A stretch of DNA of 41,285 bases, taken from Rhodothermia bacterium. Its GTDB lineage: Bacteria; Bacteroidota; Rhodothermia; Rhodothermales; JAAAOL01. The position numbers and the translations under genes were made by a program. Of the stretch, positions 3,819-26,634 are shown one piece after another; the stretch's first letter is position 1, and every line of letters starts with the position of its first letter. A model generated the notes under the pieces. It was not told where the DNA came from. It saw nothing but the letters and a program-made list of their open reading frames with translations, and did not search any database. Where the stretch lies: the NCBI GenBank assembly GCA_030428385.1, contig JAUIDY010000051.1, forward strand, positions 1-41,285, in the 5' to 3' direction.

Positions 3819-4127
3819 GGGCGTTTGGAGAGAGGAGGAAAGGGTGAGAGGGAGAAGGGGCGCGTGGGAATATGGCCATCGATGACGCTGGTGTAGCCAG
3901 AAAATGACGCGGAAGAAGTCCGCCTATGACGCAAGCGGAGCTTGCAACTGACCATCGATGACGCAGGCCCCGCCTGCCGATGACCCCAATGCCCGTGCGC
4001 TCACGCAATCTATACTAACGGGCCACCCGGCGTCGTTTGTGATACAATTGTGACCAAACGGGCCGAAACGTCGGCTTTCCTGGCTGCGTACCTATGTTGA
4101 TTCAGCTTGATGTTCGGAGGCTTCCCG
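3819..4127. other. Gene-free intergenic region holding hairpin array A
   Basis: No coding potential is apparent in these 309 bp between the GH5 gene and the T9SS-exported protein. The first 60 bp are purine-rich. The middle (3882-3985) is the 22-bp-period hairpin array described separately. The last 100 bp probably hold the promoter of the next gene, including a GATACAAT stretch near 4040, but no convincing -35 partner is visible. Confidence 0.6.
3882..3985. repeat. 22-bp-period hairpin array A
   Basis: ATGACG/CTGACC/ATGACC boundaries begin at 3882, 3904, 3926, 3948, 3958 and 3980. The spacing is 22, 22, 22, 10 and 22 bp. The interval between boundaries is different in every unit but self-complementary: CTGG/CCAG (3888-3900), GCGGA/TCCGC (3909-3923), GCAAGC/GCTTGC (3931-3945) and GCAGGC/GCCTGC (3963-3977), with loops of 3-5 nt. 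The 10-bp offset contains TGACCATCGATGACG (3949-3963), which recurs nearly unchanged in array B. It is not a CRISPR: there is no long conserved repeat with unrelated spacers. Confidence 0.75.
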
Positions 4128-12567: not shown

Positions 12568-12879
12568 ATGGCAACCCTGACCTATGACCTCCACACCGTC
12601 GACGTAAACGACGAAGGCTACCTCACCGACCCGCACCAGTGGTCGCTGGAGTTGGCCCACGAGATGGCCCGCGAGATGGGCATCGAACTCACCGACACGC
12701 ACATCGCCGTGCTGAACTTCCTGCGGGAACGCTATCTGGCAGAGCAGCCGCTCACCATCCGGCGCATCGGCAAGTCTGGGATTGTCACCATCAAGGAGTT
12801 CTATGGCCTTTTTCCCGGCGGCCCGCTGAAGGTGTCGAGCAAAATCGCAGGCATTCCCAAACCAGCAAGCTGCGTGTGA
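12568..12879 (+). CDS. TusE/DsrC-family sulfur carrier protein
   Basis: The 103-aa product is a complete DsrC/TusE-family protein. It ends KIAGIPKPASCV, with the invariant penultimate Cys102 that carries persulfide sulfur. The position 11 residues earlier, which is the second cysteine in true dissimilatory DsrC, is Ser91. This protein therefore cannot form the intramolecular disulfide of DsrC and is TusE-like or DsrC-like. It lies 52 bp after the SQR gene. A weak GCCA/TGGC hairpin followed by six T (12516-12535) sits between them and may attenuate. Its probable role is to accept sulfur from SQR-derived persulfide or a DsrE-type donor. Confidence 0.9.
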   Translation: MATLTYDLHTVDVNDEGYLTDPHQWSLELAHEMAREMGIELTDTHIAVLNFLRERYLAEQPLTIRRIGKSGIVTIKEFYGLFPGGPLKVSSKIAGIPKPASCV

Positions 12880-12887
12880 TGGCTGCG

Positions 12888-13065
12888 CGTCATGAAGGGG
12901 CAGAGCCCCTGTCACGGGCAGACGATGTCTGCGTCAGGTGCGGCCTGCGGCCTCATCAGTAGCTCGCTTCGCTCGCGTCATTTCTTGCGTCAAGCGCTGG
13001 TGATGACCAATGACCGCCCCACAGGGGCAAAATGACGCCCGAAGGGCACCTGACCATCAATGACC
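12888..13065. repeat. 22-bp-period hairpin array B
   Basis: CGTCA-type boundaries begin at 12888, 12910, 12932, 12954 and 12976, every interval exactly 22 bp. The orientation then inverts, and ATGACC/ATGACG boundaries follow at 13003, 13010, 13032, 13050 (CTGACC) and 13060. Unit interiors differ but pair with themselves: AGGGGC/GCCCCT (12896-12910), GCAGAC/GTCTGC (12918-12932), GGCC/GGCC (12942-12952), CTTG/CAAG (12984-12994), GCCCC/GGGGC (13016-13028) and GCCC/GGGC (13037-13047). The unit 12960-12975 pairs poorly. TGACCATCAATGACC (13051-13065) matches the junction of array A. The array fills the gap between the TusE-like and DsrE-like genes. Confidence 0.8.
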
Positions 13066-13082
13066 TTTAAACCCTCACAACC

Positions 13083-13598
13083 ATGGAAGCCACAACCCTA
13101 ACCCAACCGACACCTGCGGTGGCAGAAAAGCATCTGGTGAAAAAGGTGCTCATCATCTGCGCACGCGGCACCCTTGAGGATGTGTACGCCGCCCTCGTGA
13201 TGGCCAACGGCGCGCTGATGGAAGGCATGGAAGCCAAAATGTTCTTCACGTTCTTCGGCCTCGACGCCATCCGCAAGGAAAAACAAGACCACCTCCACAC
13301 CGCCACGGTGGGTAATCCAGCGATCCCGATTCCCACCATGGTGGGTGGTCTTCCCGGCATGGAAGCCCTCGCCTCAGCGATGATGCGCAAGGAGATGGAC
13401 AAGCTCGACATCCCGCCCGTCTCCGAGTTTATGGAGATGATTGTGGCGGGCGGCGGCGAGATCTACGCCTGCAAACTCGCGGCGGACATGTTTAAGCTGG
13501 AACGCGAAGACCTCATCGACGACCTCGTTGATATCATCACCGTCGGCGACATGTATGCGCTGGCCGAAGGCGATGGCACCCAGATAATCTTTATCTGA
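13083..13598 (+). CDS. DsrE2-like (DsrE/F/H superfamily) sulfur-transfer protein
   Basis: The 171-aa product is a DsrE/DsrF/DrsH-like protein of the DsrE2 type. It has the N-terminal strand KKVLIICARGTLEDVYAAL and the FFTFFGLDAIRK segment typical of the family. The conserved sulfur-binding cysteine is Cys130 in EIYACKLAADMF; a second, Cys26, lies in the first strand. A moderately hydrophobic region (GNPAIPIPTMVGGLPGMEALASAM) may be the membrane-interacting part seen in DsrE2 proteins. It is the third member of the SQR-TusE locus, 203 bp downstream of the TusE-like gene across the hairpin array, and probably passes persulfide sulfur to or from the TusE-like carrier. No clear ribosome-binding site precedes the ATG. 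Confidence 0.87.
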   Translation: MEATTLTQPTPAVAEKHLVKKVLIICARGTLEDVYAALVMANGALMEGMEAKMFFTFFGLDAIRKEKQDHLHTATVGNPAIPIPTMVGGLPGMEALASAMMRKEMDKLDIPPVSEFMEMIVAGGGEIYACKLAADMFKLEREDLIDDLVDIITVGDMYALAEGDGTQIIFI

Positions 13599-24408: not shown

Positions 24409-26634
24409 TCAGCGGACCAACACCATCGTGCGCACCTTGGTGTGGCGGCCCGCTTGCAGGCGGTAGGCGTAGACGCCACCAGGCATCGCCGAAGCGTCCC
24501 AGATCACGGTATAGGTTCCTGCCGGGCGAGTGGCGTCGAGGAGTGTAGCGCGGTGCCGTCCCAGCACGTCGAAGACATCAAGGCGGACATGCGCGGGTTG
24601 GGCGAGGGTGAAGGGAATCGTGGTCTGTGGATTAAACGGGTTGGGATAGTTTTGTGCAAGGGTGAACCCGGTAGCAACTTCAGGGGCGGGTGCTCGCGCC
24701 GTGTCGGTGTCGTCTGTGAGGCGGAGGATGGTGCCGCCTGTACCCACCACCCAGCCGCTGTCGGGGCGCACCATGTCGATGCCCCAAAGATAATTCGTCG
24801 TGCCGCTTGGCTCCCGTTTCCACGTCGCGCCGCCGTCCGTTGTGTGCAGGATCACACCACTTTCGCCCACCACCCAGCCGTTTGCGGCGTCCGTAAACTC
24901 CATGTCGTTGAGGGCGACAAACGTGCCGCTCTGTTGCCGCGTCCAGGTTTGGCCGCCATCCGTGGTTTGAACGATCTGCCCGCCGTCGCCCACGGCCCAG
25001 CCGGTCTGTGCATCAACAAACTGAACCGTGTTGAGCGTGCCCTGAAGACCGCTACCTTGCCGCGTCCAGGTTGCGCCGCCGTCCGAGGTGTGCAACACCG
25101 TGCCGTCCTCGCCAACCGCCCAGCCCTGTGCTTCATCAACAAATGAGGCATCATTTAGCGTAGCCGTGACGCCGCTGTGCTGCGGAGTCCAGGTCTGAAA
25201 CGCATCGGCAGAGTGAAGAATGGTGCCGTTTGCTCCGACGATCCAGGCGGTGTTGGCATCAGCCACAAAGCCACCCGACAAGGCTTCCGACGTGCCGAAA
25301 TCAATCGGAGCGAGGGTGAGTTCTACAACACGGGATTTAAGTCGCGAGGTGTTGTCGCCTGCCTCGACATGGGCAGTAAACCCCGGTGTTCGGCACGCAT
25401 CCATGATGATGATGCCAAACTGGAAACGATTCTCTTCGGCAATTTCTTTTTCTTCTGCTTCAATTGCCTCTTTCGTATAGCACGTTACATAAGATGTGGG
25501 CGTCTTGTTTGCATCCAGCGGATGACTGGTCCAGTTCATGCCGCCATCTTCGGTTAGGTAGACCCGGTCGCCGGGCCCTACCGTGAGGCCCAGCCGGGGA
25601 TTGATGAACATCACGTCCAGAAAAGGATCTCGGGGGCCACGGGTCTGTGCCGTCCAGGTTTGGCCGCCATCAGTGGTCTGCATGATTTCGCCGCTGAACC
25701 CCACCACCGAGCCGTTCATGGCGTCGGTAAAAAACACACCGGAGAGGTCGCCCAGTGCGCCGGTCGGCTGGGCCGCCCAGGTGACACCGCCGTCGCTTGT
25801 GTGGAACACCCACGTCCCGTCCACGGACTGCCGGTTCGTCGTTACCCAGCCGTGGTTGGCGTCCGCGAAATGAACATCGGTGAAGTTACCCATGCCTACG
25901 CCGTCGGCCCATTGTGTCCAGGTGGTGCCGCCATCGGTGGTGCGGATGCTTACGCCGCTGAAGCCTACGGCCCAGCCCGTCTGGGCATCGACGAAATGCA
26001 CCGCCTGGAGCGACCGGCTTGGGTCTGACACCTGGCTATCCTGCAGATGCCACGTCTGCCCGCCATCGGTGGTGTGATAGATGGTGGCGTTGTTTCCCAC
26101 GGCCCATCCCGTCTCCGCGTCGATGAAGAAGAGGTCGTTACACGCAAAACCGTCGGCAAGCGCCCCCTCGTTCCATGTTTGCCCACCGTCGGTGGTGCGG
26201 ACGACGGTGTTTTCGAAGGCAAGCCAGCCGTGGTTGGCGTCGGTGAAATGCACGGCATTCCAGAATTCCTCCCGGCCCACGTCTACCGCCGTCCACGTTG
26301 TGCCGGCATCGGTGGTGCGGAGCAGGATGCCGTTGAAAAAGAAGTCGCCCTGATCGCGGCTCACCGCCCAGCCGTGCTGTGCATCGACGAAATGCACATC
26401 GGTGAGGGTGCCCCGTGTACCACTGTCCTGCACCCGCCAGCTTGCGCCTCCGTCTGCTGTATATACGATGGTGCCTGCGCTGCCGACGGCCCAGCCGTGC
26501 TGCGCATCGGCGAAGTGGACGGCTTCGAGGGGGTTGCCCTGGGGCAGCGGGTTCTGCCAGTCGATGTGCTGGGCCGCGGAGGCGTGCAAGCCGCTCCAGA
26601 GAGGTAAAATCAGTAAGAGGCAGGCTGTTTTCAT
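24409..26634 (-). CDS. T9SS-exported BNR/YCF48-like beta-propeller
   Basis: The 741-aa product has a signal peptide (cleavage near 21) and about twelve repeats of a YCF48/BNR type. Each repeat pairs a WAVG-type strand (for example DAQHGWAVG at 43-51) with TTDGGQTW-type Asp-box turns (62-66, 149-154, 190-195, 233-239 and later). An insert at about 371-450 breaks the series; it holds an acidic helix (IEAEEKEIAEEN) and two Cys (385 and 414), and has no repeat character. The C-terminal 83 residues (659-741) are a type A T9SS sorting domain: QNYPNPFNPQTT, LDVFDVLGRH, GGVYAYRLQAGRH. It is predicted to be on or released from the cell surface. The name photosystem assembly factor, often given to such repeats, does not imply photosynthesis. 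Confidence 0.9.
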   Translation of the reverse strand: MKTACLLLILPLWSGLHASAAQHIDWQNPLPQGNPLEAVHFADAQHGWAVGSAGTIVYTADGGASWRVQDSGTRGTLTDVHFVDAQHGWAVSRDQGDFFFNGILLRTTDAGTTWTAVDVGREEFWNAVHFTDANHGWLAFENTVVRTTDGGQTWNEGALADGFACNDLFFIDAETGWAVGNNATIYHTTDGGQTWHLQDSQVSDPSRSLQAVHFVDAQTGWAVGFSGVSIRTTDGGTTWTQWADGVGMGNFTDVHFADANHGWVTTNRQSVDGTWVFHTSDGGVTWAAQPTGALGDLSGVFFTDAMNGSVVGFSGEIMQTTDGGQTWTAQTRGPRDPFLDVMFINPRLGLTVGPGDRVYLTEDGGMNWTSHPLDANKTPTSYVTCYTKEAIEAEEKEIAEENRFQFGIIIMDACRTPGFTAHVEAGDNTSRLKSRVVELTLAPIDFGTSEALSGGFVADANTAWIVGANGTILHSADAFQTWTPQHSGVTATLNDASFVDEAQGWAVGEDGTVLHTSDGGATWTRQGSGLQGTLNTVQFVDAQTGWAVGDGGQIVQTTDGGQTWTRQQSGTFVALNDMEFTDAANGWVVGESGVILHTTDGGATWKREPSGTTNYLWGIDMVRPDSGWVVGTGGTILRLTDDTDTARAPAPEVATGFTLAQNYPNPFNPQTTIPFTLAQPAHVRLDVFDVLGRHRATLLDATRPAGTYTVIWDASAMPGGVYAYRLQAGRHTKVRTMVLVR

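Follow-up and report, generated by a model that had tools for sequence, protein, structure and literature searches.

We found that the gap between a DsrC-like gene and a DsrE-family gene of a Rhodothermia bacterium is filled with an array of small hairpin units, each headed by the tetranucleotide GTCA, and that arrays of this kind recur throughout the genome and in distant phyla. Pairing is conserved in these units and stem sequence is not, and whole units act as interchangeable modules. The tag and the geometry are fixed, the stem is free as long as it pairs, and whole units are exchanged; the best explanation for this combination is that a folded single strand is recognised together with the tetranucleotide. 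That the arrays are REP-like mobile DNA repeats, handled by an enzyme that acts in trans and reads single-stranded DNA hairpins (a step that we infer), is a reading to which we give even chances. The window, which is the whole stretch of 41,285 nucleotides analysed here, corresponds to contig C8 in a draft genome of 6.19 Mb, where we counted at least 31 array places and 66 complete units. The features of the window are as follows.

12568 to 12879, plus strand: DsrC-like (TusE) gene, upstream flank (Pfam DsrC, E = 7.5e-25)
12889 to 12910, plus strand: unit 1, GTCA-TGA-AGGGGC-AGA-GCCCCT, 6 of 6 pairs
12911 to 12932, plus strand: unit 2, GTCA-CGG-GCAGAC-GAT-GTCTGC, 6 of 6 pairs
12933 to 12954, plus strand: unit 3, GTCA-GGT-GCGGCC-TGC-GGCCTC, 5 of 6 pairs
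12955 to 12976, plus strand: unit 4, head ATCA followed by GTA-GCTCGC-TTC-GCTCGC, 4 pairs
12977 to 13014, no strand: turn-over, with a 12-bp unit GTCATTTCTTGC, the last GTCA at 12989 and the inverted TGAC at 13004 and then at 13011
13015 to 13036, minus strand: inverted 22-bp unit, CGCCCC-ACA-GGGGCA-AAA-TGAC
13037 to 13054, minus strand: inverted 18-bp unit, GCCC-GAA-GGGC-ACC-TGAC, with a 4-bp stem
13055 to 13064, minus strand: inverted 10-bp unit, stemless, CATCAATGAC
13083 to 13598, plus strand: DsrE-family gene, downstream flank (Pfam DrsE_2, E = 7.1e-30)
3883 to 3984, minus strand: second array in the window, a single arm of four 22-bp units and one 10-bp unit

The gap comprises positions 12880 to 13082 of the window (203 bp), and the array fills 12889 to 13064. 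A complete unit of 22 bp consists of GTCA, a 3-nt linker and a 6-bp stem closed by a 3-nt loop, and variants of 18, 12 and 10 bp are present. A first-pass annotation of this DNA had described five boundaries 22 bp apart, and this spacing is exact, with GTCA at 12889, 12911, 12933 and 12977 and ATCA at 12955; the interval between the tetranucleotides is 18 bp, not the 16 bp given there. Its statement that most interiors pair with themselves around a 3-nt loop agrees with our register (GTCA+3+6+3+6), in which units 1 to 4 form 6, 6, 5 and 4 of 6 Watson-Crick pairs. The stem of unit 4 carries a tandem T.C mismatch of a type that is common in other hosts. The orientation inverts where it had been placed, near 12990 to 13003: the GTCA arm turns into an inverted TGAC arm (turn-over proper, 12989 to 13007), and minus-strand units of 22, 18 and 10 bp continue the array to its end. 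Both flanking genes are members of a sulfur operon, and the C-terminus of the DsrC-like protein is intact, its stop codon lying 10 bp ahead of the array. The second array is flanked by a gene for a cellulase-like protein and one for a secreted protein. Elsewhere in the window, a 123-bp direct repeat in two diverged copies (24934 to 25176) lies within a called gene.

The first-pass annotation had named beforehand two outcomes that would speak against it, namely the lack of further copies in the genome and an equal number of phased hairpins in shuffled sequence; neither came true. The pattern GTCA-N18-GTCA-N18-GTCA has 26 matches genome-wide and the reversed control pattern has none, and among 5000 dinucleotide shuffles one hairpin unit arose in a single shuffle and two units never, against four observed. 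GTCA pairs at 22-bp spacing number 61, while two control tetranucleotides give 6 and 2, and the spacings of GTCA peak again at 18 bp; these statistics cover 807 kb of contigs picked partly for having matches, and the densities hold for those contigs. At least five of six pairs form in the fixed register at 45 of the 61 GTCAs with 22-bp spacing, compared with 31 of the 5003 GTCAs without another GTCA at that distance and 0 of 37 controls. For units selected on spacing alone, 82% of stem positions are paired versus 44% when the 3' arms are permuted (z = 18 in the own genome); the corresponding excess is z = 19.5 in other hosts, a pool of loci of our own choosing from which Prevotella matches were set aside by eye. 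The earlier proposal that pairing and not sequence is kept is borne out by both values.

The best register places the 6-bp stem 3 nt after GTCA. Pair 1 is mostly G-C or A-T, pair 2 is mostly C-G, the 3-nt loop, read on the GTCA strand, is usually TGC or TTC, and the next GTCA directly abuts the stem end, with no tail. The conserved boundary described earlier thus narrows to the tetranucleotide: the preceding base, which had been counted as part of it, shows no preference ahead of the outermost GTCA at array edges (T6 G5 C4 A1), and in inner units it is the final base of the previous unit's stem. Units are as a rule joined head to tail, and in many arrays two whole arms face each other. Stem types that recur in the own genome are GCGGAC, GCAGGC, ACGGGC and GCGAGC. 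In other hosts, a fixed tandem mismatch is frequent in the stems, with T.C and C.T at GTCA-strand positions 3 and 4 (114 cells, and a single one of the mirror type). Viewed from the TGAC strand, the tandem T.C mismatch is a tandem G.A with a GNA loop, and tandem sheared G.A pairs and GNA loops are known features of DNA hairpins. We rejected this mismatch as proof that the TGAC strand folds, since the GTCA strand could just as well carry it as a conserved irregularity comparable to the bulge in E. coli REPs; the recognised strand could be either one.

A scan of named genomes placed arrays, among the matches listed, in Omnitrophota, Kiritimatiellae, Aminicenantes, Desulfobacterales, Marinilabiliaceae and other Bacteroidota MAGs. 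Units like these also stand at other sites of G006, a genome from the same order, and a related pattern with 17 matches in the own genome had one match, probably by chance, across 246 other genomes of the phylum. Such a spread over phyla suggests that the elements, or else the enzyme acting on them, were transferred more than once. A phage origin was rejected, as 2.9 million viral contigs gave 3 matches, few enough for chance by a rough estimate. Identical hairpins are reused in different arrays, next to different neighbours. In the Omnitrophota genome G041, about 40 units form a library from which the arrays can be composed like words, and the differences between arrays are whole units.

Several further repeats were observed in these genomes. 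On contig C177 of G041 (L292, L294; also L170, L176), two-arm arrays separate most genes, which encode small secreted-looking proteins, and several arrays of this small-protein cluster have a common distal word of units. In the hosts G045 and G050, the loci L312, L316, L325, L332, L333 and L335 contain tandem stemless 11-bp GTCA units (GTCATACAATG, GTCATAAGGTG), which are half as long as the hairpin units and at times share an array with them. At L324 (4390 to 4575), 7-bp units (TGACTGC/TGACCGC) lie directly behind an 11-bp GTCA array, a layout that recalls the TAACTGA heptamers. A near-identical 22-bp tandem repeat, GTCARGGCTCGCTTYGCTYGCG, is found at two contig ends (L098 and L111) of G036, a genome of the same order. 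Rumen Prevotella loci (L117, L119, L135, L181, L186 and others) carry intergenic tandem near-identical 22-mers, present in many MAGs, whose hairpin stands in another register (e.g. CAGAGA-TGG-TCTCTG); this is possibly a parallel element.

The DsrC and DsrE genes are likewise neighbours in seven relatives, and in six of these, within the reach of the loci, an SQR-like gene lies upstream. None of the seven has an array in the gap, which measures roughly 8 to 90 bp there versus 203 bp here. From this absence and the shorter gaps, in relatives too distant to show insertion junctions, the array was probably gained in this genome.

In the reading that we prefer, the substrate would be a unit in which a short linker joins the GTCA tetranucleotide to a small hairpin, set in head-to-tail arms that often stand face to face, like the two halves of a REPIN. 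Each unit would fold when the DNA is single-stranded, most likely in replication. An endonuclease supplied in trans would read the tetranucleotide and the hairpin shape, cut and join at GTCA, and so copy units, singly or a few at once, into existing arrays or intergenic gaps. Recognition of the tag and the folded shape would leave the stems free to vary as long as they stay paired. The mode would be comparable to that of TnpA-REP (RAYT) on GTAG REPs, an enzyme that reads a tetranucleotide plus the hairpin loop or mismatches (PMC8266576). A benefit to the host would be unnecessary, and effects on the mRNA in the DsrC-DsrE gap, if there are any, would be secondary. A point against such an enzyme is that no array-flanked Y1 (RAYT) gene was found in the host loci examined (0 of 29 loci in 11 host genomes, all incomplete drafts, searched mostly within 1.5 kb), and none of any kind was found in the host genome G046. 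The sole Y1 find in the own genome is a minus-strand fragment truncated by a contig end (L096, 17817 to 18107), with the motif YIHNNP and an in-frame repeat on its 5' side. A repeat of the GGCAACC...GGTTGCC type adjoins this fragment.

The main rival dispenses with an enzyme: replication errors, that is, slippage or template switching at GTCA-flanked hairpins, would delete and duplicate units and copy them between arrays. The same tetranucleotide does stand on both sides of every hairpin, no linked enzyme was found in the host loci examined, and G045 and G050 contain runs of near-identical 11-bp units with like neighbours. As an argument against copying in trans, slippage between GTCA repeats could also be the source of whole-unit loss. 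However, none of the 59 within-array unit pairs of the own genome shares a stem, where 3.9 are expected (P about 0.01), unlike the outcome of tandem duplication; this avoidance of like stems is limited to the own genome, and G045 has like neighbours. Moreover, tag and geometry are identical across several phyla, and new intergenic sites such as the DsrC-DsrE gap are left without a ready reason. We consider this explanation possible, if doubtful. It is unlikely that a dedicated, horizontally spread array builder is at work, in which the folded single strands of a library of GTCA-headed hairpin modules would be cut and joined by an enzyme unrelated to RAYT. If true, this would be a further way of assembling ordered bacterial DNA arrays, beside integrons and CRISPR.

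We also investigated the position of the arrays relative to genes, which were called with a simple purpose-written codon-usage model in place of a standard gene finder. Nineteen of the 21 confident arrays (at least two units) are intergenic, and nearly all lie in gaps of a transcribed type: 17 are in co-directional gaps, 2 in convergent ones and none in divergent ones, which make up 84 of all 429 gaps. Many arrays start 4 to 25 bp 3' of a stop codon, and the single arms of the own genome are TGAC-sense by 9 to 1 (a hand count from tables). These observations would fit selected intercistronic mRNA elements that tune the downstream gene through processing, stability or a protein reading GUCA/UGAC. 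However, the bias is the opposite in G045 (GTCA-sense by 8 to 2, also counted by hand from tables), so that a conserved RNA-sense orientation was rejected. The GTCA strand of the own genome has 12 G.T and 15 A.C mismatches, showing no wobble asymmetry where an RNA hairpin should favour G.U, and the predicted stability is equal for both strands. Furthermore, orthologous operons manage without an array, and no Rfam family matches it. The opposite arm orientation in two hosts and the absence of G.T enrichment on one strand weaken an RNA role and point to DNA and not to RNA. A small-RNA role is not indicated by the evidence, and we judge an RNA function in general to be quite unlikely.

The unit lengths bear on another alternative, in which GTCA would be the half-site of a protein bound on one helix face and the hairpins would aid extrusion or spacing. 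Lengths of 11 and 22 bp, that is, one and two helix turns, dominate in G045 and G050, where stemless 11-bp GTCA units form runs and stand next to 22-bp units. However, units of 10, 14 and 18 bp are also common in the own genome, without helical phasing, and binding of this kind leaves the conserved pairing and the shared stem libraries unexplained, which makes it very unlikely. The least probable explanation, and one that we consider highly improbable, is a builder resembling integrons or CRISPR that adds modules unit by unit at one end: arrays of G041 have the distal word 'd e P f' in common but not their proximal ends, and most genes of one G041 contig are separated by arrays, but the interiors are palindromes from a small library with no captured foreign DNA, viral contigs are nearly array-free, and the genes between the arrays of the own contig C141 are ordinary co-directional genes and not cassettes, a gene content that gave integron-like cassettes no support.

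Short palindromic repeats are widespread in bacteria. To our knowledge, no enzyme is known for the CGTC-tagged group. In the GTCA units, a fixed tag and geometry, a free stem and the exchange of units make gain and loss readable base by base, and allow a direct test of whether the tag, the shape or the sequence is recognised.

The first-pass annotation knew of no named element with this layout. The nearest described kinds are the CGTC- and GTAG-tagged REPs; these tetranucleotide-tagged repeats, with the BIMEs and REPINs that they form, are similar, although some of their defining features are missing here. As short extragenic palindromes in many copies per genome, the arrays of the own genome fall under the broad definition of REPs. 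CGTC REPs are short palindromes with an unpaired GTC-containing tag at one end and heterogeneous stems; they occur in several phyla including Bacteroidetes, are intergenic and mostly downstream of genes, and have no associated transposase (Di Nocera et al. 2013; PMC3733652). The GTCA arrays resemble them in the GTC of the tag, the range of phyla, the intergenic position mostly behind genes, the facing arms, the variety of stems and the absence of a transposase gene alongside at the loci examined. However, the tag of CGTC REP families 1 to 4 is CGTC (or TGTC, CCTC) and is GTCA here; their stems of 8-9 bp start from paired A-T, T-A, whereas ours have 4-6 bp and start 3 nt from the tag; their loops have 4-5 nt and ours 3 nt; and they end in the 3-nt tail CCA, where GTCA directly follows the stem in our units. 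CGTC REPs also form few clusters, in which facing (HH) pairs predominate and head-to-tail arrangements are negligible (PMC3733652), in contrast to the head-to-tail runs found here.

GTAG REPs carry GTAG/GTGG 5' of a hairpin, two facing units make a REPIN, and mosaic clusters occur; those of S. maltophilia are 23 nt long with a 3-nt loop, and the tandem REPIN clusters of Pseudomonas consist of near-identical repeats, flanks included (PMC8266576, PMC3116915). The tetranucleotide ahead of a hairpin, the facing units and the mosaic clusters are shared among GTAG REPs, REPINs, BIMEs and the GTCA arrays, and unit size and loop length are like those of the S. maltophilia REPs. However, the tag GTAG/GTGG lies 0-2 nt from the stem and GTCA lies 3 nt from it, neighbouring units here differ, unlike those of the Pseudomonas clusters, and a REPtron has its RAYT (TnpA-REP) gene flanked by repeats, unlike any of the 29 Y1 loci in the 11 incomplete drafts. 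Atypical hairpins that lack GT[AG]G are said to flank TnpA-REP subclass 2.6 (Bacteroidetes), and their further copies include weaker structures (PMC6006769). The Y1 fragment of the own genome has the YIHNNP motif of this subclass, which is a lead to a possible match between those hairpins and the GTCA units.

TAACTGA heptamers are 7-mers of identical sequence that for the most part lie shortly ahead of start codons, and they were proposed to be regulator binding sites (MacGregor 2015, PMC4679880). Like the GTCA arrays, they are intergenic tandem repeats in distant phyla whose mechanism of spread is not known. CRISPR arrays have identical repeats and non-palindromic spacers, whereas only 4 bp are repeated here and the interiors are palindromic and reused. 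Integron cassettes have attC sites (RYYYAAC / GTTRRRY) beside an integrase gene; our units begin with GTCA, and ordinary genes stand between the arrays of C141. A search of the open-access literature gave no description of similar elements, and we regard the GTCA arrays as a REP-like class, not found described, that is related to the tetranucleotide-tagged REPs.
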